From positions 1,761,747 through 1,825,746 of the forward strand of contig NZ_JAKKUT010000002.1 in NCBI RefSeq assembly GCF_029582805.1: DNA of 64,000 nt, written 5' to 3'. Within the stretch, counting starts at the first letter, position 1. Every line of letters starts with the position of its first letter. The stretch comes from Candidatus Synechococcus calcipolaris G9 (lineage in GTDB: Bacteria > Cyanobacteriota > Cyanobacteriia > Thermosynechococcales > Thermosynechococcaceae). A program made the position numbers and the translations under genes. Positions 17,501-17,539 of the stretch are shown here, in pieces. Under the pieces are notes generated by a model. The model worked only from the letters and a program-made list of their open reading frames with translations. It had not been told where the DNA came from and did no database searches.

Positions 17501-17530
17501 AATGTAGCACGGTTTTCTGCATCCCGCCAA
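17501..17530 (-). promoter_or_regulatory. Predicted promoter of the crRNA-like RNA
   Basis: On the minus strand TTGGCG (17530-17525) can act as a -35 element. After 18 nt comes TACATT (17506-17501), preceded by TG at 17509-17508 as in an extended -10. Initiation about seven bases later would fall at 17494-17497, exactly at the first degenerate repeat, giving an RNA without a long 5' leader. The -35 hexamer lies inside target site 2. Confidence 0.5.
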
Positions 17531-17539
17531 CGCCGTCTT
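17523..17539 (-). promoter_or_regulatory. Partial target site 2 of the crRNA-like RNA, overlapping its own -35 box
   Basis: On the minus strand AAG (17539-17537) is followed by ACGGC-G-TTGGC-G-GG (17536-17523). Compared with the pseudo-spacer, positions 1-5, 7-11 and 13-14 match (position 15 also) and positions 6 and 12 differ. The seed-bound region covers the predicted -35 box of the RNA's own promoter, so binding of Cascade should block it. The pseudo-spacer copy itself is preceded by CCA rather than AAG, so the RNA gene would not be recognised at that place. Confidence 0.7.

Follow-up and report, generated by a model that had tools for sequence, protein, structure and literature searches.

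How a CRISPR system controls the level of its effector and notices inhibition by a phage is an open question. The 64,000-nt stretch of DNA analysed here (the window) carries a type I-E CRISPR-Cas locus on its minus strand, in which a one-spacer mini-CRISPR (17403-17496, minus strand) lies between cas3 and cas8e. From the sequence, we propose that the product of 17403-17496 is a regulatory guide RNA of the CreR type, which acts as a Cascade-guided autorepressor of its own promoter, and we put the probability of this reading at about 0.72. Such a loop, closed by a guide on the promoter of a transcript that is its own and probably shared, is minimal and can be read from sequence; it would likely work as a built-in thermostat for the immune system.

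The mini-CRISPR and its matched sites

The minus-strand order of the locus is a WYL regulator, cas3, a gap of 666 nt, cas8e, cse2, cas7e, cas5e, cas6e, cas1, cas2 and then the 48-repeat array (Table 1). The type I-E gene set is complete (cas8e, cse2, cas7e, cas5e, cas6e, cas3, cas1e and cas2e are all present); its effectors are encoded by the type I-E Cascade genes plus cas3, and Cas9 was absent among the proteins scanned. Some spacers of the ordinary array are repeated. Toxin-related genes were noted on the minus strand in two places: a toxin-antitoxin-like group (DUF4258, DUF2283 and a HicB-like antitoxin) at 13969-14683, flanked by cse2 and cas7e within the cas operon, and a RelE/ParE-type toxin gene at 10721-10981, in the cas6e/cas1 interval.

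Table 1. Positions of the features discussed, in window coordinates
Feature	Position	Strand	Remarks
WYL-domain regulator	20286..21260	-	
cas3	17578..20289	-	
PAM AAG of site 2	17537..17539	-	from sequence
Site 2, 15-nt guide match	17522..17536	-	overlaps the -35; mismatched only at 6 and 12
-35-like TTGGCG	17525..17530	-	guide positions 7-12; spacing as for TTGGCA (L033) and TTGACT (L060)
Extended -10 TGCTACATT	17501..17509	-	TGnTAnnnT in 5/6 self-site loci
Degenerate repeat R1	17468..17496	-	20/29 positions identical to array repeat
Guide (spacer), 33 nt	17435..17467	-	array spacers span 31-36 nt
Degenerate repeat R2	17403..17434	-	aligns to array repeat with gaps; fold
Anti-guide	17375..17392	-	RNA able to pair with guide positions 1-16, leaving a 2-nt bulge
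Possible -10 TATTTA	17289..17294	-	2 nt upstream of site 1 PAM; weak
Site 1, AAG PAM + 14-nt match	17270..17286	-	mismatches only at 6 and 12
Small HTH-like ORF, 86 aa	16927..17187	-	between site 1 and cas8e; HTH named by eye
cas8e (cse1/casA)	15325..16911	-	
cse2/cas11e	14680..15300	-	
cas7e	12540..13718	-	
cas5e	11891..12553	-	
cas6e	11289..11972	-	
Ordinary CRISPR array	6275..9245	-	48 repeats, 47 spacers (43 unique)

Within the window, R1 is the best match to the array repeat outside the array itself, and RNA fold prediction gives it a hairpin. An open reading frame at 17309-17581 was set aside as coding sequence: it crosses the repeats and sites and, judged by eye, is not kept in relatives. 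The single Rfam match, to a snoRNA and on the plus strand, fell below threshold, and we took it as chance.

The guide, ACGGCATTGGCCGGA, has two AAG-flanked matches in the gap. Position 1 of the site 2 protospacer (ACGGCGTTGGCGGGA) is 17536, and the site 1 protospacer (17283-17270) lies 253 bp downstream of site 2; both sites are unpaired with the guide beyond about position 15. The only places in the 3.30-Mb genome with the PAM-plus-seed pattern AAGACGGCNTTGGCNGG are 17270-17286 and 17523-17539, both in the cas3-cas8e gap; the same pattern read backwards, as a control, occurs once. Outside the array, the 64-kb window offers an AAG-plus-seed match to none of the 43 unique array spacers; of the 2000 random 20-mers tried, 3 have such a match. 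The first-pass annotation had placed a 14-nt seed target (17536-17523) on the -35 hexamer; these coordinates are right, the site is rare in the genome and the guide match is above chance. A loosened pattern, AAGNNNGCNTTGGCNGG, gave four scattered matches in three of six genomes and equally many for the reversed control, and is hence uninformative. Spacers of the ordinary array matched nothing in a phage collection, so that AAG is a presumed PAM for the window's I-E system.

Recurrence and guide-target covariation

The comparison set comprises cyanobacterial I-E loci whose cas3-cas8e junction can be read, 21 in all from 19 genomes and 2 plasmids; they were gathered by Cas8e searches and from plasmid records, and duplicates were removed. 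Five genomes in which the junction was missing or fragmented, or cas3 was not adjacent, were left out (G493, G416, G584, G598 and G548). Also outside the junction sample are IITB6, which is another plasmid record of S. elongatus, and two genomes from other classes that are less closely related, G007 and G018. A mini-CRISPR sits at the junction in 7 of the 21 loci: the window, L033 (an Acaryochloris marina plasmid), L037 (a Synechococcus elongatus PCC 11802 plasmid), L054 (genome G602), L055 (G462), L058 (G417) and L060 (G551). Six of these seven (6/21 overall) have an AAG site that matches their own guide at 10/10 positions 40-58 nt upstream of R1, at offsets of -69 to -87 from guide position 1, the L055 site being the farthest (58 nt). 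L037 has the guide and no self site; its site lies downstream (+91), over a promoter with an extended -10. A second, downstream site is matched at 10/10 in the window, 9/10 in L033 and 7/10 in L055, where it has probably decayed, and L054, L058 and L060 have the self site only. Each guide thus has one 10/10 site in its own locus, save for the window with two. The 5' handle of R1 does not always track the local array repeat; L055 and L058 are exceptions. Antisense within its cas3-cas8e gap, L054 carries a BrnT/BrnA toxin-antitoxin pair (L054:652-1154, minus strand), and L058 and L060 carry antisense sequence that resembles this pair by eye.

The other 14 junctions have no mini-CRISPR, including those of the window's nearest Cas8e relatives (L043 and L048), and the block is absent at the junction in the close Cas8e relatives G330, G399/L018, G407, G394, G396, L016 and L017. 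Searching the order with the DNA of the block returned, besides the window, short matches only (E above 0.01, many in CRISPR repeats), and family and order searches added no new I-E loci. Mapped onto a Cas8e tree of 20 loci, the mini-CRISPR has a scattered distribution (5 changes versus a shuffled mean of 6.0), so that the block must have been gained, lost or moved repeatedly. Of 98 plasmid records found, eight non-cyanobacterial I-E regions were opened: in the six annotated records with a cas3/casA junction the two genes are at most 49 nt apart, in a Deinococcus record another gene precedes casA, and a Pseudoalteromonas record is unannotated.

The seeds differ among loci, yet every guide matches its own main site at 10/10 positions, and the true assignment alone gives 10/10 throughout (1/5040 permutations for seven loci, 1/720 for six). 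Because the site search demanded 9/10 at positions 1-5 and 7-11, matches there are partly selected; we scored the positions outside this criterion over nine guide-site pairs, leaving out the weak L055 second site. Mismatches fall at position 6 in 6/9 pairs, at 12 in 7/9, at 13 in 0/9, at 14 in 4/9, at 15 in 2/9 and at both 16 and 17 in 5/9. Position 13 thus behaves as if under constraint and positions 6 and 12 as if free of it, the pattern expected if Cascade reads the site, since Cascade flips out every sixth base of its target (PMC5904413).

The probable promoter upstream of the guide and its probable reach

Upstream of R1, which starts at 17496, the hexamer TACATT carries a TG one base upstream and stands 18 nt from the -35-like element. 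The coordinates first given for this candidate promoter, TTGGCG at 17530-17525 and TGnTACATT at 17509-17501 with 18-nt spacing, are confirmed. The two hexamers each agree with the consensus at 4/6 positions, and a strict sigma-70 scan of 16900-17700 listed no promoter; the call was made because the extended -10 is present and conserved, not on the hexamers alone. TGnTAnnnT stands between seed and R1 in five of the six self-site loci, against 0/5000 shuffles with as many, and the sixth, L060, has TGCCACAAT instead, with TTGACT 18 nt ahead of the hexamer. The extended -10 falls at protospacer position 28 in the window and L033 and, likewise, under the downstream target of L037. This operator geometry, with the seed on the -35 and the extended -10 near protospacer position 28, offers a search rule for similar loops.

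The stretch between R2 and cas8e (86-491 nt in the six self-site loci) contains neither TGnTAnnnT nor a terminator, and a -35/-10-like pair was found there in L033 only (TTGATT-17-TATCTT, upstream of site 1). Because nothing comparable was found between R2 and cas8e, the cas8e operon is probably served by the guide's upstream promoter as well, and a shared promoter would place guide and Cascade together under the feedback. The earlier proposal was of a negative feedback on the guide. It is supported in part, by the position of site 2 at the guide's promoter and by the recurrence of this arrangement, with covariation, in 6 of 21 loci; its restriction to the guide is too narrow, given that L054, L058 and L060 lack a second site and that no comparable promoter precedes cas8e.

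We infer the following course, from transcription start to sensing. The guide RNA would be transcribed from the promoter at 17530-17501 and trimmed by Cas6e, and the trimmed product would be loaded by Cascade and take it to the AAG-plus-seed site on the -35 (site 2) and to site 1. Pairing of about 15 bp would hold Cascade there, short of the 18-25 bp that interference requires in E. coli (PMC5904413), so that the promoter would be covered and not cut. With one promoter for the guide and the Cascade genes, Cascade would limit its own supply, and competing crRNAs or Cascade inhibitors would raise the output of both.

The closest competitor to this shared loop consists of two separate circuits, in which site 2 would control the guide promoter only, site 1 would control an independent promoter for the HTH-like ORF and cas8e, and the levels of guide and Cascade would be regulated separately, which comes near to the earlier proposal. 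Site 1 occurs in the window and L033 and, in decayed form, in L055; all three have a TAnnnT/A hexamer 2 nt ahead of its PAM (TATTTA, TAACTA and TAAATT, respectively), and L033 adds the TTGATT-17-TATCTT pair upstream of the site. However, L054, L058 and L060 have nothing promoter-like ahead of cas8e to go with their lone self sites, and the promoter scan of the window gave no second promoter; we regard separate circuits as possible but doubtful. The HTH-like ORF had no match in a Pfam search, and no toxin family matched it. It has kin at the same place in L055, where the frame is open, and in L033, where it contains stops. Further kin occur in G099, a genome in which the Cas8e search found none, and neither the ORF nor Cas8e had a match in the viral contigs searched.

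The same three loci that have a downstream site and kin of the HTH-like ORF (the window, L055 and L033) carry a guide-complementary element some ten nucleotides after R2; it was not found after R2 in the other four mini-CRISPR loci. The predicted guide/anti-guide duplex has -24.7 kcal/mol in the window and -29.8 in L055, values reached by 0/500 shuffles in either case (mononucleotide shuffles for the window), and is less sure in L033 (-19.4, 16/500 shuffles). For the guides of the window and L055, the best pairing partner is the element of the same locus; the L033 guide has slightly better pairing with the window and L055 elements than with its own. The precursor RNA of the window folds with z = -3.4. 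The anti-guide may keep the seed covered for as long as the precursor is not cut by Cas6e. An extension of the shared loop, which we consider unlikely, would make creR the leader of the cas8e operon: Cascade would regulate the joint transcript of guide and subunits via two operators, the anti-guide would hide the seed until Cas6e cuts, repression would thus occur only with both Cas6e and Cascade, and guide, operators and anti-guide would be coevolving. If true, the reading with the anti-guide describes a processing-gated homeostat.

Other explanations and known systems

Binding of Cascade at site 2 might instead be neutral or positive in effect, or might act, in place of covering a promoter, as a roadblock against read-through from cas3. 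The site lies ~40-55 nt downstream of the cas3 stop, and in E. coli, where AAG plus a 5-nt seed is enough for binding in vivo, Cascade bound by the seed alone left local expression unchanged (PMC5904413); a study cited in that paper found that six PAM-distal mismatches sharply lowered promoter repression. Should these findings extend to this locus, site 2 would be a weak site even though bound by Cascade. The reports of CreR, as relayed in reviews, are a counter-example to such inertness, and repression by short R-loops at this locus would contradict the E. coli view. Against neutrality and a roadblock, the site ahead of R1 is kept in six loci and the extended -10 in five; more than 500 nt separate cas3 from the site in L054, L058 and L060, with the antisense gene pair intervening in L054, so read-through from cas3 is not a common feature. 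We judge these effects together to be quite unlikely.

Common origin is a still poorer explanation of the matches. Guide, site 1 and site 2 could be functionless copies of one sequence, and in the window both sites do share a TGCAG flank beyond the seed; yet seeds have diverged among loci while guide and site remain matched, the PAM is kept in all, and blastn with a word size of 11 found nothing in the DNA of the Acaryochloris plasmid that matches the window block. We hold this to be very improbable.

The autorepressor reading places the locus closest to CreR, a mini-CRISPR-derived RNA that regulates cas genes (Liu et al. 2023, Cell Host Microbe, as cited in reviews). CreR is described as a crRNA-like RNA that guides Cas effectors to the cas promoter by partial match in types I-B, I-E and V-A (PMC13131331, PMC12737573, PMC12948488); competition with crRNAs and a response to anti-CRISPRs are described for CreR, not for this locus, in one review (PMC12737573). 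The window resembles it in having a spacer between degenerate repeats inside a cas locus and a partial match with an AAG PAM at a promoter-like region. It differs in that its type of site covers the promoter directly upstream of the guide, as in 6/7 loci, where the CreR descriptions in these reviews give no own-promoter target, and in having two sites plus a guide-complementary element. The open-licence literature surveyed, a scope that does not include Liu et al. 2023, describes no CreR site on the RNA's own promoter. The type II-A tracr-L/Cas9 system likewise represses a cas promoter with an effector and a special guide (PMC11417352), but it uses Cas9 and one RNA, where the window has I-E Cascade and a mini-CRISPR. 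Racr, an RNA anti-CRISPR of phages, is similarly a solitary repeat-like RNA (PMC10651486), but it is viral and inhibitory, and the window element lies in a host cas locus with target sites.

CreTA has in common with the window one spacer between degenerate repeats and, as proposed here, Cascade-guided promoter repression (PMC9458426); it differs in that no toxin gene was seen in the window block and that the target here is the probable guide/cas8e promoter. An addiction module of this kind, in which a toxic RNA, or else a small protein, encoded close to site 1 would be repressed by the guide, is the least probable reading of all: the guide architecture is that of CreA (PMC9458426) and a small ORF does follow site 1, but that ORF is HTH-like without a toxin family match and has stops in L033, and in three loci with only 86-158 nt between R2 and cas8e no gene was noticed there.

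In the relative G330, an in-frame TAG falls close to where cas8e starts (L009:4240-4300, minus strand); the gene may either start at a later GTG or be disrupted.
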